Shown piece by piece: positions 43,993 through 57,043 of a stretch of 64,000 bases of DNA. Below the pieces are notes generated by a model, which was given only the letters and a program-made list of their open reading frames with translations, was not told where the DNA came from and did no database searches. The translations under genes were made by a program, and so were the position numbers. This stretch comes from Candidatus Dormiibacterota bacterium (lineage in GTDB: Bacteria; Chloroflexota; Dormibacteria; Dormibacterales; Dormibacteraceae), in NCBI GenBank assembly GCA_024280995.1, contig JAMXLM010000018.1:248001-312000 (forward strand), given 5' to 3'. Position 1 is the first letter of the stretch. Each line of letters opens with the position of its first letter.

Positions 43993-44826
43993 ATGGCAGT
44001 TGTTGGACAGGCAAGACCCGGGGTTCCGATGAACGTCCGCACCCCGAACATCAGGACGCCGCTGTTCATCCTGGGCGTGGCGCTGGCGCTCGTCGCGTTC
44101 CTGGTGATGCTCACGTTCGGCCTTCTCTTCGCGAACAAGGCCGGCTCGGGCACCCAGGTGCAGGTGGTGGTCGCTGCGAAGCCGATCGAGGCGCGTCAAT
44201 CGATAACCGCCGACCTGCTGACGACCAGGTCGCTGCCCGCGAGCAGCGTCGGGCCTGGAGCGTTCACCAGGCTCGGGGACCTGAACGGCGATTCCGCCAT
44301 CGTCTCGATCCCTGCCGGCCAGGTGATCAGCTCCAACCTCGTCACCGCCAACCAGGACCTGTTGACGGCCACCGCCAACCCATACCTGCCGATCCCACAA
44401 GGCTGGGTCGCGACCACGTTTTCGACGAACGAGGTGCAGGGTGTCGGCGGATACATCGCACAGGGCGACTACATCAACATCGTCGCCACCCTCAACACCA
44501 CGGTCTTCACTTCGCTCAACCCGCGCACGGTGACCCGGACCGTGTTCACGAACGTGCACGTGATCCGGATCGGCCCCGACGCGACGCTCGTCAAGCAGGG
44601 CCAGGGCCAGGGGCTGACCAGCAGCATCACCGTCGTGATGACGTCGTGTGACGCCGCGTACATGAACTGGCTCGCCACCGTCGGAACGATCAAGTACGAG
44701 CTGCTGAACTACAAGGACTACAACACCGTCACGCCCCAGCCGGACGCCAGCTGCCCGGTGGACTCACTGCCGCCAACCGTCGGTCCAAAGCAGGTCCAGG
44801 CGCGCTGGGACTTCCTGGCCGGATAG
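43993..44826 (+). CDS. cpaB: Flp pilus assembly protein CpaB/RcpC-like (SAF domain)
   Basis: A 277-residue protein with one N-terminal TM (PLFILGVALALVAFLVMLTFGLLFA), then a SAF domain (VVVAAKPIEARQSITADLLTTRSLPAS) and the RcpC-type region (GWVATTFSTNEVQGVGGYIAQGDYINIVATLN). CpaB/RcpC normally lies near the secretin or cell-envelope part of Tad pili and may bind the wall. No secretin gene is present here. ATG 44029 is an alternative start nearer the TM segment. It begins the machinery part of the Tad operon. Confidence 0.85.
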   Translation: MAVVGQARPGVPMNVRTPNIRTPLFILGVALALVAFLVMLTFGLLFANKAGSGTQVQVVVAAKPIEARQSITADLLTTRSLPASSVGPGAFTRLGDLNGDSAIVSIPAGQVISSNLVTANQDLLTATANPYLPIPQGWVATTFSTNEVQGVGGYIAQGDYINIVATLNTTVFTSLNPRTVTRTVFTNVHVIRIGPDATLVKQGQGQGLTSSITVVMTSCDAAYMNWLATVGTIKYELLNYKDYNTVTPQPDASCPVDSLPPTVGPKQVQARWDFLAG

Positions 44827-44848
44827 AGGGGCAGAGGCAATTTCCACA

Positions 44849-46225
44849 ATGAGGCCGCGTCCAACAGTCGCCAGGCTCGAGGAGCCGATGCCGGGAAGGC
44901 CCGTCCTCGCAACCGAGGGGCGCCGAGATCCGTCGTCGCAGAAACGTCACGACCGCCCGGCGCTCGCCTTCCACGACATGGTCTCGCGCGTCAGCACCAT
45001 GGAGCTGGCGCCGGTCTTCTTCAGCCTGCCCGATACGACGCTGCGCGCCCTGGCGCGGCGCGCGCGGCGCCTCAGGTTCAACGCCGGCGACATGATCCTC
45101 TACCAGGGCGAGCCCGGCGACACCATCTTTTTCATCGAGCGCGGCCGCTGTCGCGTGGTGGTCGAGAAGTCGGTAGGCGTGGTCACGGTTGCCCTTCTCG
45201 CGGACGGGGACATATTCGGCGAGAGCGCTTGCCTCCTCAACCGCCCGCAGCAGGCGTCCATCTACGCGCAGACGGAGTGCTACCTGCTCGCAATCGACCG
45301 GCAGAGCCTGCAATTGGTGATGGCGAGCAGGGAGCACGAGGCGCTCGACAAGCTTCGTGCGCTCGCCGAGCAGCGGTTCTCCGCCTACGCGGACGCCAGC
45401 ATCCAGGCGACCTGGAGCCTCCTCCTGCACGAGGCGACGGTGGTGGCGGTGTATTCGCCCAAAGGCGGGTCCGGCGGCACGACGATCTCGCTCAACCTGG
45501 TCGGTGCGCTGGCGCGCAAGTACCCGGGCGAGGTCCTGTTGTTGGACCTCGACTTTCCGTACTCGCACTCTGCGCTCCTCGCGGGCCTGATCCCGACAAG
45601 CTGCCTGGCGCGAATGGGGGCGCTGCCGCAGGAGTCGTTCGAAGAGGTCCTGCTGAGTGCGGTCCTCTACCACGCGGGCGGTCCGATGATCCTTCCGGGC
45701 GCGCTCCGGCCCGAGGAGGCGGACGAGGTCACCCCGGAGCTCATCAACCGGGCGATCACGGTTCTGCGGAAATCGTTCCGCTACGTGGTCGTGGACCTCG
45801 GCGTGACGATCACAGACTCCACCCTGGCCCTGCTCGACCTGACCCAGCACGTCATCGTGGTGACCGTTCCGGAGCTTTCGGCCGTGAAGAGCACCGCGGA
45901 CGCGATGGACATCCTCCGCCGGCTCGGGACGCCTGAAGATCGGGTCACCGCGGTCCTCAACAACAGGTCGCCCAAGGGGGCGATAAGCCGCTCCGCCGTC
46001 GAGAGGTCGCTGAAGCGCGAGATCGATGTCGAGGTGTTGTTCGATGCCGGCCGGCCGGAAGAGGCCGCGGTCAACGCGCAGATCCTGAGCCTGGCCAACC
46101 CGCGAAGCGAGCTGACCAAGGGCGCCGAGGCGCTGGCCGGATTGCTCGAAGCCAAGCACGCCAGACCGGCGATCCGCGCCGGGGCGGAGCCACCGGTCCC
46201 GGCGGGAGCGGGCAAGGAGCGCTGA
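44849..46225 (+). CDS. Fusion of a cNMP-binding-like domain with a CpaE/TadZ-type ATPase
   Basis: A 458-residue protein. Residues about 50-170 form a cyclic-nucleotide-binding fold (FFSLPDTTLRALARRARRL, LYQGEPGDTIFFIERGRCRVVVE, GDIFGESACLL), but the phosphate-binding Arg after FGE is Gln134 (NRPQQASI). Residues about 195-430 form a MinD/ParA-like CpaE domain with VAVYSPKGGSGGTTISLNL, in which the signature Lys205 is kept and the P-loop Lys is Gly210. VLLLDLDFPYSHSALL is the A-prime motif. CpaE/TadZ proteins place the Tad machine in the cell. The extra domain suggests ligand control of pilus positioning or assembly. The stop overlaps the next ATG. Confidence 0.85.
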   Translation: MRPRPTVARLEEPMPGRPVLATEGRRDPSSQKRHDRPALAFHDMVSRVSTMELAPVFFSLPDTTLRALARRARRLRFNAGDMILYQGEPGDTIFFIERGRCRVVVEKSVGVVTVALLADGDIFGESACLLNRPQQASIYAQTECYLLAIDRQSLQLVMASREHEALDKLRALAEQRFSAYADASIQATWSLLLHEATVVAVYSPKGGSGGTTISLNLVGALARKYPGEVLLLDLDFPYSHSALLAGLIPTSCLARMGALPQESFEEVLLSAVLYHAGGPMILPGALRPEEADEVTPELINRAITVLRKSFRYVVVDLGVTITDSTLALLDLTQHVIVVTVPELSAVKSTADAMDILRRLGTPEDRVTAVLNNRSPKGAISRSAVERSLKREIDVEVLFDAGRPEEAAVNAQILSLANPRSELTKGAEALAGLLEAKHARPAIRAGAEPPVPAGAGKER

Positions 46226-47103
46226 TGCCTCCCTCTCCCGCCGGCGTGATCGTCCAGGCTCAAGCCGGCCTGCGGCGCAGCGCCGTTCGCCGCCAGCTGC
46301 GGGCGGTCGCGTCCGGCGCGACGGACGTCCTGTCGATAAACGTCGAGGACAACGGAGTCGACGTCGGCGCGCTTGTCGAAGAGGCGACGCGAGGAGCGCG
46401 TTTGGACGGCCAGGAGCTGCAGAGACTGCGCGTGGGCTTCCTCAACTCGGGCACCGCCGACCGGGTCGTCGCGCAGATGACGGGCAAGAGCCCGGACCAG
46501 CGCATCAGCGGTGCGCGGGTGCTCGGCGCGCTGCGCATGTACGACGGGATTCCCTGGCTCGCCGGGCTCCTTGAATCGCGAGAGCATAAGGTGGCCGACG
46601 CGGCGGCGCGGGCGCTCGGCAAGATCGGCGGCGCAAACAGCGCGGCCGCGATCGTCACGGCCATCCACCGCAGGGGCACCAATCGCCGGCTGGTCGCCGA
46701 GCTCGCGCGGTCCGCACCCGACCTGTTCATCGAAAGCGCGCTCCGGGACGGGCACCGTCCCTCCGTCCGGCCTTCGCTCGTCATGGCGGCCGGATTGCGC
46801 CGGCGACGGGCGGCCATCGCTCCGCTGATCGAGGTGTTGGAGAGAGGCACCCGCCGCGAGCGAGCCATCGCATGCCGCGCGCTGGGATGGATTGGTGCGA
46901 CGTCGGCCATCCCGGTCATCGACGCCGCGCTGATGGACCCCAACTGGCGGATCCGAATGTCCGCGGCAAAGGCGCTTGGGGCGCTGCGCGCAATCGCGGC
47001 ACAGAACGACTTGAAATACACGACCCTCGACCGCAACGCGCGCGTGAGGGAGGCGGCTCGGCTTGCCTTGAACCGGCTCGGAGGGCGCGCTCATGGCGCT
47101 TAA
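46225..47103 (+). CDS. HEAT-repeat protein in the Tad operon
   Basis: A 292-residue soluble protein. After about 85 residues it shows helical HEAT/PBS-lyase-type repeats: DQRISGARVLGALRMYDGIPWLAGLLES, REHKVADAAARALGKIGGANSAAAIV, RRERAIACRALGWIGATSAIPVIDAALM and NWRIRMSAAKALGALRAIA. Such repeats form a curved scaffold for protein binding. The ATG overlaps the upstream stop (TGATG), and the 3' end overlaps the cpaF start by 11 bases. Tight coupling on both sides implies a role in the Tad machine, perhaps bridging CpaE and CpaF. It is not part of standard Tad gene sets. Confidence 0.8.
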   Translation: MPPSPAGVIVQAQAGLRRSAVRRQLRAVASGATDVLSINVEDNGVDVGALVEEATRGARLDGQELQRLRVGFLNSGTADRVVAQMTGKSPDQRISGARVLGALRMYDGIPWLAGLLESREHKVADAAARALGKIGGANSAAAIVTAIHRRGTNRRLVAELARSAPDLFIESALRDGHRPSVRPSLVMAAGLRRRRAAIAPLIEVLERGTRRERAIACRALGWIGATSAIPVIDAALMDPNWRIRMSAAKALGALRAIAAQNDLKYTTLDRNARVREAARLALNRLGGRAHGA

Positions 47104-48520
47104 GGACAGGCTCGAGGCTCGGCGACGCCCCGAGCCGGCTGAGGTCTCATCCGCGGAGGTCGGCCTCAGCGTGATCGAGGGCATGCGTCCGGAGCCCAAA
47201 CCGGTTCAACAGCAGAAGCCGGCCGAAGAGGACGCACAGCGGACAAACCGCGCAGCTTCGTCCGTCACCACGGCGAAGGCCGCGATTCACGCGCTGCTCG
47301 TCGAGCGGCATGCGGACGACATCGACATCACGGACCGGGCCGGTGTCCGGGCGCGGATCACGAGCGTGGCCGACGAGCACGTCAAGAGCGCCGGCATCGC
47401 CATCAACCGTCTCGACTACGGCCACCTGATCGACGCCCTTCTCGACGAAGTCCTCGGCCTCGGCCCGCTGCAGCCGCTTCTCGAGGATCCGGCCGTCAGC
47501 GAGATCATGGTGAACCACCCGCACCAGATCTACGTGGAGCGCAAGGGCCGGGTGAGCCTGAGCCCCGTCGTGTTCGAGACCGCCGCCCAGCTGCGCCAGG
47601 TCATCGACCGGATCGTGAGCACGGTCGGCCGTCGCGTCGACGAGAGCTCGCCGATGTGCGATGCGCGCCTACGCGACGGCTCGCGGGTCAACGTAGTCCT
47701 TCCTCCGCTGGCGATCGACGGCCCATGCCTGACGATCAGAAAGTTCTCGCGCGACAAGCTTCAGCCCGAGGACCTGCTGGCGATGGGCAGCGCGACCACG
47801 GAGATGATCCAGTTCCTGGACGCGGCGGTGCGAAGCCGGCTCAGCATCCTCGTCTCCGGCGGCACGTCCTCCGGCAAGACGACGTTGCTCAACATCCTCT
47901 CGGGATTCATCCCGCCGGACGAGCGCATCGTCACGGTCGAGGATTCGGCCGAGCTGCAGCTCCGCCAGTCGCACGTGATCCGCCTCGAGTCGCGGCCGCC
48001 CAACGTCGAGGGCAAGGGCGCGATCGAGATCCGCGACCTCGTCCGCAACGCCCTGCGGATGCGCCCCGACCGAATCATCGTCGGCGAGTGCCGTGGTGGC
48101 GAGGCGCTCGACATGCTCCAGGCGATGAACACCGGGCATGAAGGGTCGATGAGCACCGTGCACGCGAACAGCAGCTACGACGCGTTCGGACGCCTCGAGA
48201 CGATGGTCATGATGGCCGGCGCGGAACTGCCCTCGCGAGCCATCCAGAAGCAGGTCTCGTCCGCGATCGACCTCGTCGTCCAGGCGGAACGTGTGCGGGG
48301 AGGCGCGCGGAAGATCGTCAACATCACCGAGGTCACGGGCCTCGGAGACGGCGAGATCCAGATGCAGGATCTTTTCGTCTACCGCCAGACCGGCATCGAC
48401 GCGGAAGGCAACGCACGGGGCTTCCACACCGCGACCGGCAAGAGGTCGATTCACCTCGACCACTTCGCGCAGCGCGGCGAGAGAGTGTCCGAAGCGATCT
48501 TCGAGCCGGCGGTCGTCTGA
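47093..48520 (+). CDS. cpaF: Tad secretion ATPase CpaF/TadA
   Basis: A 475-residue GspE-superfamily ATPase. The N-terminal helical domain carries [31 protein letters not shown]. Walker A is [19 protein letters not shown], with the Asp box [12 protein letters not shown], Walker [34 protein letters not shown] and [14 protein letters not shown] following. CpaF/TadA forms the hexameric motor for Flp pilin assembly. The first 90 residues are charged and probably flexible. It is followed directly by TadB and TadC genes. A second, shorter CpaF is encoded 5.2 kb downstream. Confidence 0.94.
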
Positions 48521-48521
48521 G

Positions 48522-49463
48522 ATGGGGATCGTCATCCTCGTCTCCGCCGTGGCCGCCGCCGGTGTGCTCATCGCGGGAATCGCGGTGGCGCTGCCGGCCG
48601 CCTCGTCCGCCGGTAGGGCTCGCTGGGAGACCATCTCTGCGCCAAAGTCACTTCGGACCCGGATCAGCCAGCCGTTCGAGGCGCTGGCGGACCGAAGCAA
48701 CCGCCAGCACAGGCTCAACGGGGGTCTCACGGTCGCCGAGCACCTCGCTCGGGCGGACCTGAAGCTACGCACCGCGGAGTTCGTGATGATCCAGGTCGGG
48801 CTCCTTGTCGGCGGAGCACTCCTTGCGCTGTGGCGATTCGGGTTCTCGCCGCAGTTCGTGATCGCCGGCGTGGTGGCGTACCTGATCCCGATGCGGGTCG
48901 TGAAGTTTCGCCAGCGGCGGCGCCTCACCAAGTTCAACAGCCGGCTTCCGGACACCCTCAGCCTCCTCTCCAACGCGATGAAGGCGGGGCTGTCGCTGCC
49001 GCAAGCCATCGAGTCTGTGGCCAAGAACGCATCGGCTCCAATCTCGGACGAGCTGGAACGGGTCGTCCGAGAGACCAAGCTCGGCAGCTCGACCCCGGCC
49101 GCGCTCGCCAACATGGTGCGGCGCGTCGGGAGCGAGGACCTGGACCTGATCGTGACCGCGATAGCCATCCAGGCGAACGTGGGCGGCAACCTGGCCCGGA
49201 TCCTGGACGGCATCTCGCACACGATCCGGCAGCGGGTTCAGATCAAAGCTCAGATCGGGGCGATGACCGCCCAGATGCGAGCGTCCGGCTGGATCATCAC
49301 CCTACTGCCGTTCATCGTCGCGGCGATCCTCAACGTCGTCACTCCGAGCTACTTCCGCGTGATGTTCACCGAGCCGTTCGGCCGCGTTCTCCTCGTGCTG
49401 GCCGGGATCTCGATCTTCATCGGCAACGTCTTCGTTCGCCGAATCACGAACTTCAGGATCTGA
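48522..49463 (+). CDS. tadB: Tad inner-membrane protein TadB
   Basis: A 313-residue protein starting at ATG 48522, one base after the cpaF stop; the longer frame from 48291 lies inside cpaF. The N-terminal TM is IVILVSAVAAAGVLIAGIAVAL, followed by a TM pair around 90-135. The T2SSF domain is FNSRLPDTLSLLSNAMKAGLSLPQAIESVA to NLARILDGISHTIRQR, and the C-terminal TMs are WIITLLPFIVAAILNVVTP and VLLVLAGISIFIGNVFV. It is the membrane platform for the CpaF motor, paired with TadC. Confidence 0.92.
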   Translation: MGIVILVSAVAAAGVLIAGIAVALPAASSAGRARWETISAPKSLRTRISQPFEALADRSNRQHRLNGGLTVAEHLARADLKLRTAEFVMIQVGLLVGGALLALWRFGFSPQFVIAGVVAYLIPMRVVKFRQRRRLTKFNSRLPDTLSLLSNAMKAGLSLPQAIESVAKNASAPISDELERVVRETKLGSSTPAALANMVRRVGSEDLDLIVTAIAIQANVGGNLARILDGISHTIRQRVQIKAQIGAMTAQMRASGWIITLLPFIVAAILNVVTPSYFRVMFTEPFGRVLLVLAGISIFIGNVFVRRITNFRI

Positions 49464-49464
49464 G

Positions 49465-50400
49465 ATGGCAGCTCTCTACGTCGCGACGATCCTGGGCGCG
49501 ATGGCGGCGCTCGGCGTGTTCATCACGGTGTGGAGCACGATGCCGCAAGGCCCGACCAACGCCGACGTCGTCGAGGGGCGCCTGCGTGTTTACGAGACTG
49601 GCCTGCCGCTGACGGTGGCCGATATCGAGCTCCGCCAGCCCTTCATGGATCGCGTCGTCAAACCCGCGCTCAAGCGAGTCGGACGCCTGGTGGAGCAATC
49701 GACGCCCGAGAAGGTGAGGCAGAAGATCACGACCGACCTGCAGGTGGCGGGTCACCCAGGGGGCATGACGGCGGGAGATCTGATCGCGGTGCGCTACGTG
49801 ACGGCGGTTCTGCTTTGCATCCTCGGCCTCCTTGTCGGCGCGATGCTGCAGAACCCGATCACCCTCGCGGTTCTTGCGGCCACCGGAACGCTGTCGGGTC
49901 TGTACGGCCCGATGATCTGGCTGCGGCTCAAGCTTGCCGGCCGCCGCGCCGAGATTCAGGCGGACCTCCCCGACGTGATCGACGTGCTTGTCGTCTGCGT
50001 CGAGGCCGGCCTGACTTTCGAAGCCGCGATGGAAAAGGTGGTCGAGAAATACGACCACGGCCTCGCCGCCGAGTTCGGCAGAGTCATGCAGGAGATCCGG
50101 ATCGGCCGGCCGCGGCTGGAGGCGCTCAACGACATGGGCCAGCGCAGCGGCGTGGAGGACCTGAACAACTTCGTCCAGGCGATCATCCAGTCGGAGCAGC
50201 TGGGGTCCGGCGTCAGCAAGATCCTTCGCATCCAGTCGGACGAGATTCGCCTCCGCCGGTTCGTCACGGCGCAGGAGCGTGGCGCGCGGGCCTCGCTGAA
50301 GATGCTGCTCCCGATGCTCGGGTGCATCTTCCCGACCCTGTGGGTGATATTGCTCGGGCCTGCCGCACTGCTGGCGATGCGCTTTTTGGCGGGCGGCTAG
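49465..50400 (+). CDS. tadC: Tad inner-membrane protein TadC
   Basis: A 311-residue T2SSF protein: an N-terminal TM, then YVTAVLLCILGLLVGAMLQNP. The domain is IQADLPDVIDVLVVCVEAGLTFEAAMEKV to FVQAIIQSEQLGSGVSKILRI, with a final TM, LGCIFPTLWVILLGPAALLAMRFL. TadC works with TadB as a heteromeric platform. The start is ATG one base after the tadB stop. Length and order (tadA-tadB-tadC) are canonical. Confidence 0.92.
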   Translation: MAALYVATILGAMAALGVFITVWSTMPQGPTNADVVEGRLRVYETGLPLTVADIELRQPFMDRVVKPALKRVGRLVEQSTPEKVRQKITTDLQVAGHPGGMTAGDLIAVRYVTAVLLCILGLLVGAMLQNPITLAVLAATGTLSGLYGPMIWLRLKLAGRRAEIQADLPDVIDVLVVCVEAGLTFEAAMEKVVEKYDHGLAAEFGRVMQEIRIGRPRLEALNDMGQRSGVEDLNNFVQAIIQSEQLGSGVSKILRIQSDEIRLRRFVTAQERGARASLKMLLPMLGCIFPTLWVILLGPAALLAMRFLAGG

Positions 50401-51036
50401 ATGCGCGGTCAGCGAGGCCAGTCCTCGGTCGAGTTCGGCGCCTCCGCGATCGTCCTGTTCCTTCTTCTGTACGGGCTGATCGACCTCGGTCGCGTCTTCT
50501 ACTTCGACGTCGGCCTTACCGGGGCCACCCGCGAGGCCGCACGGCAGGCCAGCTGGTTCTCGGTGCCGAACAACGGCAATGCGGGCAGCAACCCCAGCCT
50601 CTACGACTCCGACGGTTGGACGCAGGACCCATGCCCGTACGAGGCGAACGGCAACCCGAACGGCGATCCAAACGCTTTCCCCGGCATCAAACAGGCGGTC
50701 GACTGCAACCTCAACAAATATCACCTGCCCTCGTCGATCCTGGAGAACCCCGCGACCACGTGTCCGGACGGCACCGATGGAAACGCGAACCACAATCCGC
50801 CCTACGCCGACTCCGTCTATCCGACGACCGTCGACCAGCCGCTGCTGTTCATCTGCTACGACAACACGCCTGGCCTCGACCTGGCCACGGCGCCGGCCGA
50901 CAACTCGTTCAAGGGCCAGGACGTCAACGTGATCTTGATCATGAGCTTCGGGTTCGCGGGCGGGTTCATGCCCAGCGTCGTCGGCAGCTCGGTGCACATC
51001 GTCGCCAACACGCACATGGTCGTCGGGGGTTACTGA
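50401..51036 (+). CDS. TadE-like pseudopilin
   Basis: A 211-residue protein with the TadE signature at its N-terminus: RGQRGQSSVEFGASAIVLFL then LLYGLIDLGRVFYFDVGLTGATREAARQA, including the Glu of the pseudopilin helix. The rest is extracytoplasmic, Asn/Asp/Pro-rich with several Cys (DPCPYEANG, DCNLNKY, TTCPDG, ICYDN), which may form disulfides. TadE proteins are processed by the Tad prepilin peptidase and assist pilus assembly. The ATG directly follows the tadC stop. Confidence 0.85.
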   Translation: MRGQRGQSSVEFGASAIVLFLLLYGLIDLGRVFYFDVGLTGATREAARQASWFSVPNNGNAGSNPSLYDSDGWTQDPCPYEANGNPNGDPNAFPGIKQAVDCNLNKYHLPSSILENPATTCPDGTDGNANHNPPYADSVYPTTVDQPLLFICYDNTPGLDLATAPADNSFKGQDVNVILIMSFGFAGGFMPSVVGSSVHIVANTHMVVGGY

Positions 51037-51037
51037 G

Positions 51038-51592
51038 TTGCGCCTGCGGTTCTCGAACGGTCAGCGCTCCCAGTCGATGGTCGAGTTCGCGATCGTGGCT
51101 CCGGTCCTTCTGCTTTTGCTGTTCGGAATCGTGGACTTCGGCCGGGCGATCTACATCTACGCCACCATCAACCAGGCCGCCAACGAAGGCGCGCGCACCG
51201 CGATCCGGGCGTCCGCGCTGCTGCCAACCAACTCCGACGTGGAGACGGCGGTCAAGCGCCATGCGGTCGACGTTTCGCTCGCGAACCCGTGCCCGAACGG
51301 TCCCGTCGTTGCGGGCCAGACCCCGCCGGCGAACCAGGGGTGGCTGTACATCACCGAACCCGACGCGCCGCCGGCGGTTGAGACGCTCACCCCGACGCTG
51401 GAGAACGCCCCCGGCGGCCAGACATGGGCGAACGCGACCGGCGGCTGCAGCGCCACCAACCCCGCGCACGACCACGCCCCCCTGCAGGTGACCATCCGCT
51501 ACAACTTCGTCCCCATCACGCCGCTCATCCAGCAGGTGACGGCGAGCCACATCGTGCTCAGCGCCTCGGCGACGTACAAGACGGAGTACTGA
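51038..51592 (+). CDS. TadE-like pseudopilin
   Basis: A 184-residue protein from TTG 51038, one base past the upstream stop. The N-terminus is SNGQRSQSMVEFAIVAPVLL, then LLLFGIVDFGRAIYIYATINQAANEGARTAI, a clear TadE helix with Glu at the expected place. The exported part has four Cys-type positions (NPCPNG, GGCSATNP) and ends in beta strands (LSASATYKTEY). It is the second TadE-like gene in tandem; the two probably assemble together with the TadG-like protein. Confidence 0.87.
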   Translation: MRLRFSNGQRSQSMVEFAIVAPVLLLLLFGIVDFGRAIYIYATINQAANEGARTAIRASALLPTNSDVETAVKRHAVDVSLANPCPNGPVVAGQTPPANQGWLYITEPDAPPAVETLTPTLENAPGGQTWANATGGCSATNPAHDHAPLQVTIRYNFVPITPLIQQVTASHIVLSASATYKTEY

Positions 51593-53704
51593 GTGAGGAC
51601 CTCAGGCCGAAGAAGGCAGCGTGGGCAGGCGATCGTTCTCGTCGGCCTCTTGCTCGTGGTCCTCTTCGGCTTCGTGGGCCTGGCGTTGGACGGCGGTCAC
51701 GCCTACCTCGACCGCCGGCAGATGCAAGCCTCGGTCGATGCGGCGTCCCTCGCCGCCGCTTATGACTACATGGCGAGCAACGACGTGAGTCACGCGGACT
51801 ACGCCGCGAGGGACGTGTACGCCAAGAATGAACGGCTCTATTCCCTGCCCACGTGCTCCCTCAGCGGCAGCACTCTGACGTGTCCGTTCGGCGACCCGAC
51901 CAATCAAGTCCTGACGGTCACCTCCACCAACCTTTCGATCGCCGGCGTCACGTTCACGGCCACGGCAACGCATCAGGTGGGTATCGCGATGATGCAGGTG
52001 CTCGGTTCCGGCTCGTTCGTAACGGTCGGCGCGACCGCCACTGCGCTGGCAAGGCAGGCGGGGGCCAACGGCGCGGCCATCCAGACCCTCGACCCGACGT
52101 GCTCGGGATCATTGACGTTCACCGGCAACGGGACCGCCACCCTGATCGGCGACGTCTGGTCGGATGGAAACATCTCCGGCGGGGGCAGCTCGAGCGGCTC
52201 CGTCACCGGGAACGCGGTCGCGGTGTGCTCGAGCCCCGCCCCTCCTTTCTTGCCCGCGCCCTGGACGGTGTCCGGATCCCAGGTCCTGGGGTTCAACATG
52301 CCGGACCCCGACTATCCGATGCCGGCGCTCAGCCTCACCAACCAGAGCTGGAGCTCACCGAACTGCGCCGGCGAATGCCCTGGCCTGTACACGACCGATC
52401 CGCACCCCACTGGTTCGGCGACCTGCTACTTCCTGGACGCCGGGGTCTACGACATGAGCGGCGGGCTGACCCAGGATGGCGGCCTCATCAGCAATGAGCT
52501 CCGGCCCCCCGACGAGCCGAACGTCTACGCCGCGGGCACGCCGAACACGACGACCCTGAACGGAGACCTGACCGGATTGAGGATCACCTCGATCAACGTG
52601 AACGCCATCCCTGGAGCTCTACCCTCGGGGACTCAGCTTTCCGTCGGCGGTCAGACTTTCACCACCTCGGCAGCCGCGGCCGCGGGTGCCACGAGTCTCA
52701 GCATCAGTCGCCAGGACGTGATCGGCACGATCCCCAGCGGGACGCTCGTGGCGTTTCGCGCGCTCCCTCAGTTCTGGGACTCAGTGGCGCCCTGCAGCGG
52801 TTCGTTCCAGGTCGACCCGGTCGGAGGCACCAACAACCTGACCGGGACATGGTCGGTGGAGGTGACGTCCGTCAGGTGGGTGCCATACACGTGTGCAGGC
52901 CAGGCCGCCGGGCCGACTTGCTTCGTCCGCGAGAGCGCACCCTCGATGTGCAAGACCGTGACGCTTGGCAGCAGCACCAACTTCAAGGTGACCGTCGGCA
53001 CGGCGGTGCCGGGGGCGCAGTACCTGAACGTCTACGCCGCCCAGAACGGAACGTGCAGCGGCCTCGCATACCTGACGCAGGTTCAGAACAGCGTCAACGC
53101 GGCGGTGACCGTGAACAGCAGCTTGTTTCCCGCAGGGTGGCCGAGCGGCGCAGCGTCCCCGCCGGACAATCTGAACCCGCCGCTGGCCGGTGGGCTGCCC
53201 GACACGGAGCCCACGCCCGCGGCGCCGCCACACGGAGACCTCGCGAACGAGAACCAGTGCGTCGATCCCACAACCGGCAACGACGTGGCGCCGCTTTTCA
53301 CAGCCAGCCTGCTGCCGCACTGTCCGAACGGCGCCGTAACACCGGGCGCAGTGGTTCTGTTCTTCCCGTCGGGTGGCTGCATCAGCATGAACGCGGGAGG
53401 AGACATCTATGTCTTCACCGGCAACCAGTACAGTCGTGTCGTTCTCTACGAGCCCGGCCCCGAGCAGTCGAGCCAGCCGAACACCTGCGCTAACAAGATC
53501 AACGGGCACGACTTCACGAGCTTCATCGGCATCTTCTACGTGCCCGCCGCCGGCATCACGCTAAACGGGACAAGCCGCGTCCGCGCGACGATCGCGGGCG
53601 GCCTCATCGCTTGGACCGCCACCGTGCTCGGAAGCGAGAACCTGGCCATCACGGCGGATCCATCTTTGCGGGCACTGCCCGCCACAGTGAGGTTGACGCA
53701 ATGA
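51593..53704 (+). CDS. TadG-like Tad pilus-associated protein
   Basis: A 703-residue protein from GTG 51593, directly after the TadE-like stop. It begins RRRQRGQAIVLVGLLLVVLFGFVGLALDGGHAYLDRRQMQASVDAASLAAA, the Tad/TadG N-terminal domain (PF13400 type). The large exported remainder is Ser/Thr/Gly-rich, with many Cys (about 20) and beta-strand patterns, including SINVNAIPGALPSGTQLSVGG and a FIGIFYVPAAGITLNGTSRVRATIAGGLIAW region near the end. TadG is normally the tip or anchoring component; this one is larger than most. Its end overlaps the second cpaF start by 4 bases. Confidence 0.85.
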   Translation: MRTSGRRRQRGQAIVLVGLLLVVLFGFVGLALDGGHAYLDRRQMQASVDAASLAAAYDYMASNDVSHADYAARDVYAKNERLYSLPTCSLSGSTLTCPFGDPTNQVLTVTSTNLSIAGVTFTATATHQVGIAMMQVLGSGSFVTVGATATALARQAGANGAAIQTLDPTCSGSLTFTGNGTATLIGDVWSDGNISGGGSSSGSVTGNAVAVCSSPAPPFLPAPWTVSGSQVLGFNMPDPDYPMPALSLTNQSWSSPNCAGECPGLYTTDPHPTGSATCYFLDAGVYDMSGGLTQDGGLISNELRPPDEPNVYAAGTPNTTTLNGDLTGLRITSINVNAIPGALPSGTQLSVGGQTFTTSAAAAAGATSLSISRQDVIGTIPSGTLVAFRALPQFWDSVAPCSGSFQVDPVGGTNNLTGTWSVEVTSVRWVPYTCAGQAAGPTCFVRESAPSMCKTVTLGSSTNFKVTVGTAVPGAQYLNVYAAQNGTCSGLAYLTQVQNSVNAAVTVNSSLFPAGWPSGAASPPDNLNPPLAGGLPDTEPTPAAPPHGDLANENQCVDPTTGNDVAPLFTASLLPHCPNGAVTPGAVVLFFPSGGCISMNAGGDIYVFTGNQYSRVVLYEPGPEQSSQPNTCANKINGHDFTSFIGIFYVPAAGITLNGTSRVRATIAGGLIAWTATVLGSENLAITADPSLRALPATVRLTQ

Positions 53705-54828
53705 ACGAAGCCGCCGCCGCGGGTCACGACTACTCGCAGCTGGGTCCGCTTGGTCCGCTGATGGCAAACCCGAGGATCACCGAGATCATGGTCATGGGCG
53801 CCCAGCAGGTCTATGTCGAGGTCGACGGCAAGATCATCCTGACGCCCGTCACGTTCGACTCCGATGACCAGCTCATGGGCATCATTCGCGACATCGTCGA
53901 GTCGGTCGGCCGTCGCGTCGACGTGTCGAGCCCGATCTGCGACGCCCGCCTGGCCGACGGCTCGCGTGTGCATATCGCCATCCCACCCGTCGCTGTCGAC
54001 GGCCCGCTGATTAACATTCGCCGTTTCGTGCGCGGCCCGCTCGACATGGCCGACCTGATCCGGCTGGGCAGCTGCAGCGAAAGCGCCTTCGGGTTTCTGA
54101 AGGCCTGCGTCGCCGCTCGCGCGAACATCGTCGTCAGCGGCGGCACCGGCAGCGGCAAGACGACGCTTCTCAACGTGCTGTCCGGCTACCTGCCGGACGA
54201 CGAGCGAATCGTGACGATCGAGGATGCCGCCGAGCTGCAGCTGCGCCAGCGCCACGTCGCGCGGCTCGAGTCTCGGCCTGCCGGGCCAGAAGGCAAGGAG
54301 ATCACGATTCGAGATCTCGTCATCTCCTCGCTGCGCATGAGACCGGACCGCCTGGTCGTCGGTGAGGTTCGAGGGCCGGAGGCGCTCGACATGCTGCAGG
54401 CGATGAACACGGGACATGACGGATCGATGACGTCACTCCACGCCAACAAGCCTCGAGACGTGCTGGCAAGGATCGAGACGCTGGTGCTGATGGCCGGATA
54501 CGACTTGCCGGTGCGAGCGATCCGAACCCAGATCACGAGCGCGGTCAACGTCATCGTCCATCTCGAGCGTATGCGCGACGGAACGCGCAAGGTCGTGCAG
54601 ATCAGCGAGGTCACCGGGATGGAGGAAGACGTGATCACCATGCAGGACGTCTTCCGTTTCATTCGCAGCGGCGTGGACGGCCAGGGGCGCGTGGTCGGGA
54701 GGTTCAGCCCGTCGGGCATCCGGCCGCGGGTGTTCGACCGCCTGGACGACCTCGGGCTCGAGCTGCCTGAGGAGATGCGCTCGCTGTTTTTCGAGGCCGC
54801 GCAGCCCACACAGATGGCCTACCAGTAA
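53701..54828 (+). CDS. Second CpaF/TadA-type ATPase (short form)
   Basis: A 375-residue ATPase starting at ATG 53701, which overlaps the TadG-like stop (ATGA); the longer frame is discarded. It starts almost at the conserved core: LGPLGPLMANPRITEIMVMGAQQVYVEVDG. Walker A is [19 protein letters not shown], Asp box IVTIEDAAELQLRQRH, Walker [34 protein letters not shown]. It lacks the N-terminal charged and helical part of the first CpaF. Catalytic motifs are complete, so it is probably active, perhaps as an antagonistic or retraction-type motor. Confidence 0.92.
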   Translation: MNEAAAAGHDYSQLGPLGPLMANPRITEIMVMGAQQVYVEVDGKIILTPVTFDSDDQLMGIIRDIVESVGRRVDVSSPICDARLADGSRVHIAIPPVAVDGPLINIRRFVRGPLDMADLIRLGSCSESAFGFLKACVAARANIVVSGGTGSGKTTLLNVLSGYLPDDERIVTIEDAAELQLRQRHVARLESRPAGPEGKEITIRDLVISSLRMRPDRLVVGEVRGPEALDMLQAMNTGHDGSMTSLHANKPRDVLARIETLVLMAGYDLPVRAIRTQITSAVNVIVHLERMRDGTRKVVQISEVTGMEEDVITMQDVFRFIRSGVDGQGRVVGRFSPSGIRPRVFDRLDDLGLELPEEMRSLFFEAAQPTQMAYQ

Positions 54829-54829
54829 G

Positions 54830-54835
54830 AGGAGG
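54830..54835 (+). promoter_or_regulatory. Strong ribosome binding site of the Arg-Arg repeat microprotein
   Basis: AGGAGG lies seven bases before ATG 54843. It argues that the short downstream ORF is a real gene. Confidence 0.75.
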
Positions 54836-54842
54836 AAGAGGG

Positions 54843-55043
54843 ATGGCAACCACGATTGAGCAGAGAGGAGATACCCGACGGCGGAACACCGACAGGCGAC
54901 AGGACGAGCGACGATCCGCGGCCGACAGGCGGCAGGCGGTCGCCGAGGTGCCGGCCGACCGCAGAGTCGCGGACAGGCGCTTTGTGGAACGCCGTGCCGA
55001 GGTCCGTCGCCGGCTGAACGACCGCCGGCACCTGCTGACCTAG
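54843..55043 (+). CDS. 66-residue Arg-Arg periodic microprotein
   Basis: A very charged protein with 21 Arg in 66 residues and no hydrophobic core. Arg-Arg pairs, most preceded by Asp or Glu, recur at residues 13, 18, 23, 29 and again 40, 45, 50, 56, 61. The spacing 5-5-6 is repeated with an offset of 27, suggesting an internal duplication. A strong ribosome site lies 7 bases upstream. It is the last gene of the Tad operon, 14 bases after the second ATPase gene. Function unknown: nucleic-acid, polyphosphate or anionic-lipid binding, or a disordered linker to another Tad part, are possibilities. Confidence 0.75.
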   Translation: MATTIEQRGDTRRRNTDRRQDERRSAADRRQAVAEVPADRRVADRRFVERRAEVRRRLNDRRHLLT

Positions 55044-55051
55044 ACACCCTC

Positions 55052-55071
55052 CCGCCGCGTCCACGCGGCGG
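55052..55071. terminator. Hairpin after the Tad operon
   Basis: CCGCCGCG (55052-55059) pairs with CGCGGCGG (55064-55071) around TCCA, just past the microprotein stop and before the convergent HATPase gene stop. There is no T-run. It may block read-through in both directions. Confidence 0.5.
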
Positions 55072-55083
55072 TGTCGACTGCCT

Positions 55084-55557
55084 CTAGCGGGGCACCCTGA
55101 CGTGCACGCTCGTCCCGAAACCGGGGAAGGTGTCGATCCACAGGTCTCCGCCCATCAAAACCGCCCTCTCCGTCATCTCGATCGTGCCCATGCCCACGGT
55201 CGTGGCGCTGCGGTCGAAGCCGCAGCCATAGTCGGTGACCGTCATCGAGAGCTTGCCGCTGGCCAGCGAGCCGAGCTTGACCGACACGTGCTTTGCCCGG
55301 CTGTGCCTCGCGGCGTTCTGCAGCGCCTCGCGCGCGATGCGGTAGAGATTCACCGTGATTCCCGGCGGGGCTGCGGCCGGCCAGCTCCGGCTGACCACGA
55401 GCGCCGTCCGAATGCCGGTCCGGCGTTCAAATCCCCCCACCAGGTCAGACATCAGGTCACAGAAGTCGGCGCCGTCCGAGGTGATCGCGCGGGCGTCGTC
55501 AGGGTCGACGGCAGCGTCGACCGTGTCCTGCTCTGTGCCTTGTGCCGCGATCGCCAA
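55084..55557 (-). CDS. Stand-alone HATPase domain protein (NarL-type kinase family)
   Basis: A 157-residue protein that holds only the ATP-binding half of a HisKA_3-type kinase. N box: LYRIAREALQNAARHSRAKHVSV. G1 box: VTDYGCGFD. G2 box: VGMGTIEMTERAVLMGG, then DTFPGFGTSVHVRVP. The first 35 residues are acidic and unconserved; no ELHD-type His box or dimerisation helices precede it in frame. It could be a kinase remnant, or a regulator that binds a partner, as anti-sigma kinases do. It lies between the Tad operon and an MFS gene transcribed the other way. Confidence 0.75.
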   Translation of the reverse strand: MAIAAQGTEQDTVDAAVDPDDARAITSDGADFCDLMSDLVGGFERRTGIRTALVVSRSWPAAAPPGITVNLYRIAREALQNAARHSRAKHVSVKLGSLASGKLSMTVTDYGCGFDRSATTVGMGTIEMTERAVLMGGDLWIDTFPGFGTSVHVRVPR

Positions 55558-55852
55558 TTTGCTGTTCCTCTTCGATTCTGTCTGGAGTCACGCGAGCCGA
55601 AAGCACCGCGAGGCCCCGAAAAACGATTGGCCGAGGAGCAACGATCGATGCATGTTCCGCGTGGCCGCCTCACGGCGCCCATTTCGCGGAACCACGCGGC
55701 GCTCCCCTAGTCCCTCCCTCGCCGCGTTTGGTGTTCCCAAACGCGAGCGTTCACGTGACATGAGTGTAGAAACCGCCTGGACACGTTCCAATGGGACGTA
55801 TGTCCCTTTCTGCGTGAAGAAAGCGGCCCGAGTTTGGCAACCTATCCGACCG
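55558..55852. other. Divergent intergenic region
   Basis: These 295 bases separate the HATPase gene start and the MFS transporter start. Open frames cross it, but their composition does not look coding. ATG 55759 would extend the transporter by 31 residues. I see no clear promoter boxes or dyads. Confidence 0.4.
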
Positions 55853-57043
55853 ATGGCGGACAACCAGCTTCGCGGATTGCGGTTGGCCTACGTGCTGATG
55901 GGCGTCACAGACGGCAGCCTGCTCCCATTCATCCCTCTCTACCTGCTGCAGCAAGGGCTGAGCCCTTCCGGCATCGGAGCAGTCTTGGCGGCGACCGCGT
56001 TCGTGGCGCTGGTCGCGGGGCTGGGCTGGGCCTATCTTGCCGACCGGCGGCTCAGCCCGGAGAGGTTGGTCGTCGGGGCGGCTTTTTGCGCGGCGGCGGT
56101 CTCGCTCCTGCTCCTCCTGCCGGGTGCGCGGTCGGTCCCCGGCCTCCTCATCGTCGGCCTTTCGCTCGCCCGCTCACCCCTGGCCCTCCTCGACCCCATC
56201 ACCCTGCGAAGGCTGCGCCTGTCGAGCCGGACGGACTACGCCAGGATCCGCCTGCGCACGAGCGCCGGCTGGGCGGCTTCCGCGATCCTGACCGGGGGGG
56301 CGTATGGGATGTTCGGCCTGGCTCTCATACCTCTTATCTATGCGCCGCTTTCCACGCTCCTCGGCATTTGGATCTGGAGAACGATCAAGCCCGACCCCGA
56401 GCCGGCGCTCGGCGCCGTCCCCTCAACCGCCGGGATGGGCGGCATCCCGCGCGTGCTGCTCGGGTTTCTGGGGAGCTTGATGCTGCTCGGCATCGCGCTC
56501 GCGGCAACCCAGAACTTCCTCGTGCTGCAGATCGACCTGCTCGGCGGCGGCGCGCTGCTGGTCGGCGCCGCGGCCGCGTTTCAGGCCCTGACCGAGATCC
56601 CGACGATGGGATACATCCACGTCCTGACGAAGCGGTTCAGCCATCGCATCCTCTTCGCGATCGGGTGCGCGATCTACCTCGCGATCTTCGTCGCCTGGGC
56701 GTTCGCGGGCAGCGCGCTGGTGGCGGCGCTCCTGAAGCTCGGCGTTGGCGTCGCTTTTGCGCTGACCTTCGTCTCCGCGGTGATGATCGCCAACGACCTG
56801 GTGCCGGCGCGGCTGCGCGCGACCGGCCAGGCGCTCGTGAAATCGGTGCTGTTCGGAGCCGCGCCGATCGTCGGGGCGTTCGGCGGGGGCGTCGTCTACG
56901 GGTCGTACGGAGCGCGAGTCATGTTCCTGGCGTCGACATTCGTCGTCGTGGCCGCCGGGGTGATCGCTCTCGTGGTGGTCCCGGCGCGCAGGGCCGTGCC
57001 CGCCGGGGAACCTGTGCTCGCCGCGAGCGCCGCCACGCCCTGA
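55853..57043 (+). CDS. MFS transporter (MFS_1-like)
   Basis: A 396-residue protein from ATG 55853 with 12 predicted TM helices. LAYVLMGVTDGSLLPFIPLYLLQQGLSPSGIGAVLAA is TM1-2, and GWAYLADRRLSPERLVVGAA is the MFS loop 2-3 signature. LRLSSRTDYARIRLRTSAGWAAS and ALTEIPTMGYIHVLTKRFSHRILF resemble the LacY/MFS_1-like group. Substrate unknown. ATG 55759 is a possible longer start, but that extension is not membrane-like. It converges with the cyclase gene, whose stop follows immediately. Confidence 0.85.
   Translation: MADNQLRGLRLAYVLMGVTDGSLLPFIPLYLLQQGLSPSGIGAVLAATAFVALVAGLGWAYLADRRLSPERLVVGAAFCAAAVSLLLLLPGARSVPGLLIVGLSLARSPLALLDPITLRRLRLSSRTDYARIRLRTSAGWAASAILTGGAYGMFGLALIPLIYAPLSTLLGIWIWRTIKPDPEPALGAVPSTAGMGGIPRVLLGFLGSLMLLGIALAATQNFLVLQIDLLGGGALLVGAAAAFQALTEIPTMGYIHVLTKRFSHRILFAIGCAIYLAIFVAWAFAGSALVAALLKLGVGVAFALTFVSAVMIANDLVPARLRATGQALVKSVLFGAAPIVGAFGGGVVYGSYGARVMFLASTFVVVAAGVIALVVVPARRAVPAGEPVLAASAATP

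Follow-up and report, generated by a model that had tools for sequence, protein, structure and literature searches.

Why should a Tad pilus operon end in a gene for a small, arginine-rich protein? The window, a 64,000-nucleotide stretch that is part of a 3.0-Mb draft genome of a Candidatus Dormiibacterota bacterium, holds such an operon, and directly behind its second ATPase gene lies an open reading frame (ORF) whose 66-residue product carries Arg-Arg pairs at short, regular intervals. The features concerned are the following, in positions of the window.

43993 to 53704, forward strand: remaining Tad operon, encoding CpaB, a cNMP-binding/ParA-like protein, a HEAT protein, CpaF1, TadB/C, TadE and a TadG-like protein (Pfam, except that TadC, 49465-50400, and TadE, 51038-51592, were read from the sequence).
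53695 to 54828, forward strand: second CpaF/TadA-type ATPase (T2SSE) of the operon, directly 5' of the microprotein (Pfam PF00437, E 4.5e-58; orthologs).
54830 to 54835, forward strand: Shine-Dalgarno AGGAGG, 7 nt ahead of the ATG (sequence).
54843 to 55043, forward strand: ORF of the 66-residue [DE]RR microprotein, stop included (translation; orthologs and alignment A1; pN/pS).
54849 to 54944, forward strand: predicted helix 1, residues 3-34, with RR pairs starting at residues 12/13, 18, 23 and 29 (AlphaFold2).
54954 to 55037, forward strand: predicted helix 2, residues 38-65, with RR pairs starting at residues 40, 45, 50, 55/56 and 61 (AlphaFold2).

At the N terminus of the operon's ParA/MinD-like protein in the TadZ position (44849-46222), Pfam recognizes a cyclic-nucleotide-binding domain (cNMP_binding, E 6e-19); Tad systems do not usually have such an input. 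A HEAT-repeat protein (46225-47100) is encoded between this ParA-like protein and CpaF1, and this one operon contains two different CpaF/TadA-type ATPases (47093-48517 and 53695-54828).

The microprotein ORF starts 14 nt past the cpaF stop. A preliminary description of the locus had credited it with a strong ribosome site and with Arg-Arg pairs at a 5-5-6 spacing, repeated twice at an offset of 27; the AGGAGG 7 nt 5' of the ATG and the residue positions in the translation confirmed both. No terminator-like hairpin was found within 54700-55900, and a search for a promoter near the ORF found none. Arginine accounts for 21 of the 66 residues (32%), and the net charge is +9. None of 100,000 residue shuffles matched the seven [DE]RR triplets of the protein, and a chain of five RR pairs at a spacing of 5 or 6 was attained in 0.085% of them; the plain count of RR pairs was less striking (1.1% of shuffles, P = 0.011). 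When the Arg power spectrum was averaged over ten orthologs, it peaked at 5.33-5.5 residues with a power of 12, while the power at periods of ≤5 and ≥6 residues was about 2 or less.

Conservation of the ORF was evaluated in its genome and 60 relatives, 61 in all. Ten of these gave strong matches (E ≤ 1.6e-8), all within the same genus and all directly 3' of the same cpaF. An ortholog of this gene, cpaF2 (80-100% identity), was present in 12 of the 17 genomes of the genus, and the microprotein ORF followed it in 10 of these 12 (the G007 copy is cut by a contig end); in G001 and G010, cpaF2 was present and the microprotein was absent behind it. Both genomes examined from genus g2 had the microprotein at the same place, and none was seen behind cpaF in five more distant genomes of the same taxonomic family (G018, G021, G023, G031, and G033), the contig of G031 stopping 228 bases on. 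Three of 30 loci were missed by the script used for the cpaF comparison (L047, L054, and L055), the first being a g2 genome covered via L014. The gap between cpaF2 and the microprotein ranged from -1 to 34 nt among orthologs. In 12 of 12 members of alignment A1, the start (ATG, GTG, or TTG) was preceded by a Shine-Dalgarno core of 4 nt or more, a count biased toward success because the starts were chosen by visual inspection, with the ribosome site visible. The preliminary description had held that failure of the ORF or its ribosome site to be conserved in close relatives would count against it; both are kept.

Across the ten genus sequences (45 pairs), the median pS was 0.64 and the median pN 0.27, for a ratio of 0.40 with a maximum of 0.61, synonymous sites being near saturation. 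We conclude that ORF 54843-55043 is a genuine gene under purifying selection. RR columns of the alignment averaged 94% identity, compared with 59% for other columns, and all six Arg codons are used by the gene, indicating that it is the Arg lattice as such that is preserved.

Database comparisons gave the microprotein no name. Pfam returned no family at E ≤ 10 for the window protein and, among 12 orthologs, a single unrelated match (E 0.35); NCBIfam, PHROGs, and PDB sequences gave no usable match, and Foldseek found no match in the PDB for the predicted model. The absence of any Pfam or NCBIfam match also applies to the Tad/Flp/Rcp family of known pilus components. Phages and plasmids yielded no relative, only three chance matches at E 4-8, and a Streptomyces match (L083) was discarded as out of frame and due to chance. 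A literature search, which covered few subscription papers, turned up no account of a family or motif of this kind.

The genome itself, however, encodes at least two further relatives. The copy at G000:C37 belongs to a family of ∼65 amino acids with the consensus ..rgpERR..DRR...RRfgERR.pERA.agRR...pfDRRvaERRf.eRR..wP, which was found (E ≤ 0.01) in 17 of 17 genomes of the genus and 31 of 42 genomes of the taxonomic family. Of 38 loci submitted to a tblastn script, two fell outside the family; thyX, recognized by Pfam Thy1, lay directly upstream on the same strand at 29 loci from 28 genomes, and seven loci were without it. These ORFs started mostly 13-92 nt past the thyX stop, several starts being miscalled by the script. 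Aligned by hhalign, the Tad-linked and thyX-linked families gave a probability of 96% (E 3e-9), compared with 0.7-25% in four reversed-alignment controls that retained the lattice, and a [DE]RRVxxRRF[VL]ERR stretch in the helix 2 region is common to both. Judged by these profiles, the two families are homologous, their similarity reaching beyond the shared RR lattice. A further standalone group occurs in other surroundings (L116, L117, L119, and L133). ThyX itself is unusually long in this lineage, roughly double the normal size, and Pfam marks two Thy1 stretches in it (L020 3-1442; L131).

The module is also carried by enzymes. An alpha/beta hydrolase (Pfam Abhydrolase_1) ends in the thyX-type module as a C-terminal tail in G035, G366, G026, and G420; the same search gave 15 hydrolase orthologs, with the tail in these four, a degraded tail in a fifth (G022), and none in the ten others. 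In G021, a domain of ∼80 residues bearing a [DE]RR tail occurs in three copies. One of them (L128, 2926-3393, reverse strand) lies directly upstream of PhoU_div and PHO4 phosphate-transporter genes (2246-2857 and 1246-2250), neighbors that we did not use as evidence because the N-terminal domain of this type was present, in its three copies, in only 1 of 61 genomes. L164 and L165 may be further fusions, if their upstream frame is coding. The L142/L169 tract, which lies in the frame upstream of what we take to be a phosphoribosyl-pyrophosphate-synthetase-like protein, was dropped as probably untranslated.

On sequence grounds, then, the Tad-linked microprotein is one branch of a small, lineage-specific, undescribed family in one Chloroflexota lineage. 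The core of this family is a module of ∼50 residues, in two halves, with [DE]RR triplets each 5-6 residues, and in the predicted proteins it is either a free microprotein (behind cpaF2, behind thyX, or elsewhere) or a detachable C-terminal enzyme tail. The placement of a polycation gene at the end of the Tad operon stands, and the ORF adjoins cpaF2 in relatives too. The further suggestion that it is pilus linked as such is not supported: the most widespread member follows thyX, others are standalone or enzyme tails, and 2 of 12 genomes with cpaF2 lack the microprotein.

AlphaFold2 modeled the window protein, from a two-sequence alignment, as two helices joined at a Pro (mean pLDDT 74.8; pTM 0.33, at which helix packing is not fixed). 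Ideal-helix angles place the Arg pairs on two roughly opposite faces. R(i)-[DE](i+4) pairs are enriched (5.8 versus 3.7 expected), as is R-x-x-[DE] in 12 orthologs (6.1 versus 3.7 in shuffles).

Our tentative reading, held at somewhat less than even confidence, is that of a portable two-helix Arg-pair module that may bind phosphate-rich ligands and thereby tether its host or neighbor. It fits best because Arg pairs are kept while the rest drifts, two helices are predicted, free and tail forms coexist, and the neighbors are unrelated. The module would fold as two helices with Arg pairs alternating between opposite faces, and these pairs would hold a phosphate-rich ligand at several points, most likely nucleic acid, otherwise polyphosphate or a nucleotide. 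The microprotein, or an enzyme carrying the module, would then be tethered to such a ligand or bridge it. Here, the free module and the pilus ATPase would be co-produced from the Tad operon, and the module could act on the operon RNA, a nucleotide signal, or the ATPase. Use as a tail on an enzyme points to action by the protein itself rather than by its mRNA, and the module is probably reusable and sticky rather than a pilus part. Several points count against the phosphate-ligand tether: the acid before nearly each RR lowers the net charge and makes the microprotein unlike protamine- or histone-like polycations, the helix packing in the model is not fixed, we know of no ligand common to ThyX, the hydrolase, and the pilus ATPase, and so marked an alternation of acid and base would suit pairing with another protein equally well. 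What the genomes present is an undescribed, selectively maintained module with a near-single rule (an acid and an Arg pair each 5-6 residues), placed 3' of unrelated genes and also joined to enzymes. If binding of a nucleotide signal or of nucleic acid were true, one short pattern would allow that activity to be predicted for many small proteins and enzyme tails that now lack annotation, and the Tad pilus would gain a new small regulator.

A narrower ligand, c-di-GMP, was suggested by [DE]RR tracts outside the taxonomic family. A pattern scan for four spaced [DE]RR matched 40 of 400 genomes of the phylum, and among the matches listed and a few fetched stretches, most inspected loci outside the family were minisatellites. 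GC-rich minisatellites of 15 and 18 nt read as DRR or ERR repeats in one frame and mimic the motif in such scans (e.g., families f21 and f38); the same scan of the class of G141 likewise gave mostly minisatellites among the matches listed. Three tracts passed a minisatellite screen with coding-like composition and a plausible frame. In G141, from the distantly related Chloroflexota family f32, the tract forms the N terminus of a GAF-HD-GYP protein, of the c-di-GMP phosphodiesterase type. That of G363 is the C terminus of a GGDEF protein, a borderline case in partly repetitive DNA (self-identity 0.72), and that of G115 is the C terminus of a protein without a Pfam match. Of the 28 genomes in this family, 21 have an ortholog of the GAF-HD-GYP protein. 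Two or more [DE]RR preceded the GAF domain in 20 of the 21 by a script that found no start in about eight of them and there counted the upstream frame too, and in 19 of the 21 by eye from the nearest Met, the exceptions by eye being L275, with one [DE]RR, and L260, with none. The spacing and terminal position of this tract resemble those of the microprotein module, a likeness that is possibly convergent; unlike the microprotein, the tract varies widely in length, up to 10 triplets, and is fused to a signaling enzyme. Against the HD-GYP and GGDEF tracts (f32 and f21), the A1 profile gave a match in G313 at no better than E 2.9e-4, these tracts being too variable for a comparison of common ancestry. 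Together with the hydrolase tails, the tracts on these two signaling proteins bear out the remark in the preliminary description that similar DRR tracts occur in bacterial proteins elsewhere. A link between [DE]RR and c-di-GMP enzymes, noticed after the fact and in few independent cases, may exist.

The microprotein would, in that case, be a cyclic-dinucleotide receptor whose RRxx[DE]RR units hold an R-x-x-[DE] clamp, similar to the inhibitory-site motif of GGDEF proteins, and it would sense or buffer c-di-GMP for the Tad motor. We consider this unlikely. The enrichment of R-x-x-[DE] and the tracts on the two enzymes speak for it, and GGDEF domains occur in 17 of 17 genomes of the genus, with eight in the genome at hand. 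Tad pili of Caulobacter are under c-di-GMP regulation, according to the accessible text of PMC6581867. In the accessible part of PMC4151990, the BldD c-di-GMP signature is RXD-X8-RXXD and that of BldD itself RGD-X8-RQDD, from which residues 8-22 of the window protein (RGD-X8-RQDE) differ by one acid. A relaxed BldD-like form was present in 5 of 12 orthologs, compared with 0.2 per protein in shuffles; the strict signature was present in 0 of 12 and no BldD domain was matched, and a BldD-type receptor was rejected. Nor did the proteins fit a PilZ receptor, with no Pfam match and RxxxR at shuffle level (5.8 versus 5.6). Also against a c-di-GMP receptor, the residues between Arg pairs drift, D and E can stand in for each other, neither thyX nor the hydrolase is known to be connected with c-di-GMP, and the outside tracts may be convergent. 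Still more doubtful is the broader proposal that the lattice is a new portable class of cyclic-dinucleotide binder, in which clamps on two helices would take several c-di-GMP molecules, N- or C-terminal tails would sit on c-di-GMP-making and -breaking enzymes, a tail would also sit on the hydrolase, and free microproteins would link the Tad motor and thymidylate synthesis to c-di-GMP.

Also improbable, in our estimate, is an Arg-rich RNA-binding peptide that targets its own mRNA or small RNAs, like the lambda-N type Arg-rich motifs or the DUF1127 protein CcaF1. An Arg content of 32% in two predicted Arg-rich helices would suit it, as would the position directly behind cpaF2, with paralogs behind thyX, and CcaF1 offers a precedent (PMC12501420, accessible text). 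However, the module is also an enzyme tail, a form in which it is unlikely to act on its own mRNA, and the hairpin search noted above was negative.

We rate as rather improbable a protein-protein regulator whose lattice of charges would dock onto an acidic surface, in this case on CpaF2. Its immediate linkage to cpaF2, with the short gaps described, would be expected, and the accessible text of PMC12501420 supplies precedents in which DUF1127 and MgrB act on sensor kinases (DUF1127-PhoR and MgrB). Yet thyX-linked and hydrolase-borne paralogs would need other partners, G001 and G010 have cpaF2 alone, and the non-Arg residues are poorly conserved. Last, the ORF might be a chance product of high GC content or the in-frame translation of a minisatellite, as the repeats mimicking [DE]RR outside the family could suggest. 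Conservation rules this out, to near certainty: all Arg codons are used, selection is purifying, and start, ribosome site, and position are kept in relatives.

Among known systems, and by analogy, the microprotein would work most like the DUF1127 proteins (CcaF1, YjiS, and the Agrobacterium SDPs), which are likewise short and Arg-rich, with two predicted helices and exposed Arg, and for which both RNA binding and sensor-kinase binding have been reported (PMC12501420, accessible text). With 66 residues, 21 Arg, and helices predicted at 3-34 and 38-65, the window protein resembles them in size, Arg content, and helices. It nevertheless lacks any Pfam match and thus stands outside DUF1127, whose average Arg content is 14% compared with 32% here, and the strict 5-6-residue [DE]RR lattice and use as an enzyme tail also set its family apart. 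Alternating acid and Arg on a charged helix recalls the ER/K single alpha-helices, which are defined by E(i)-R(i+4) pairs; this assignment was rejected, [DE](i)-R(i+4) being depleted (2.3 versus 3.6 expected) and the reverse order enriched instead.
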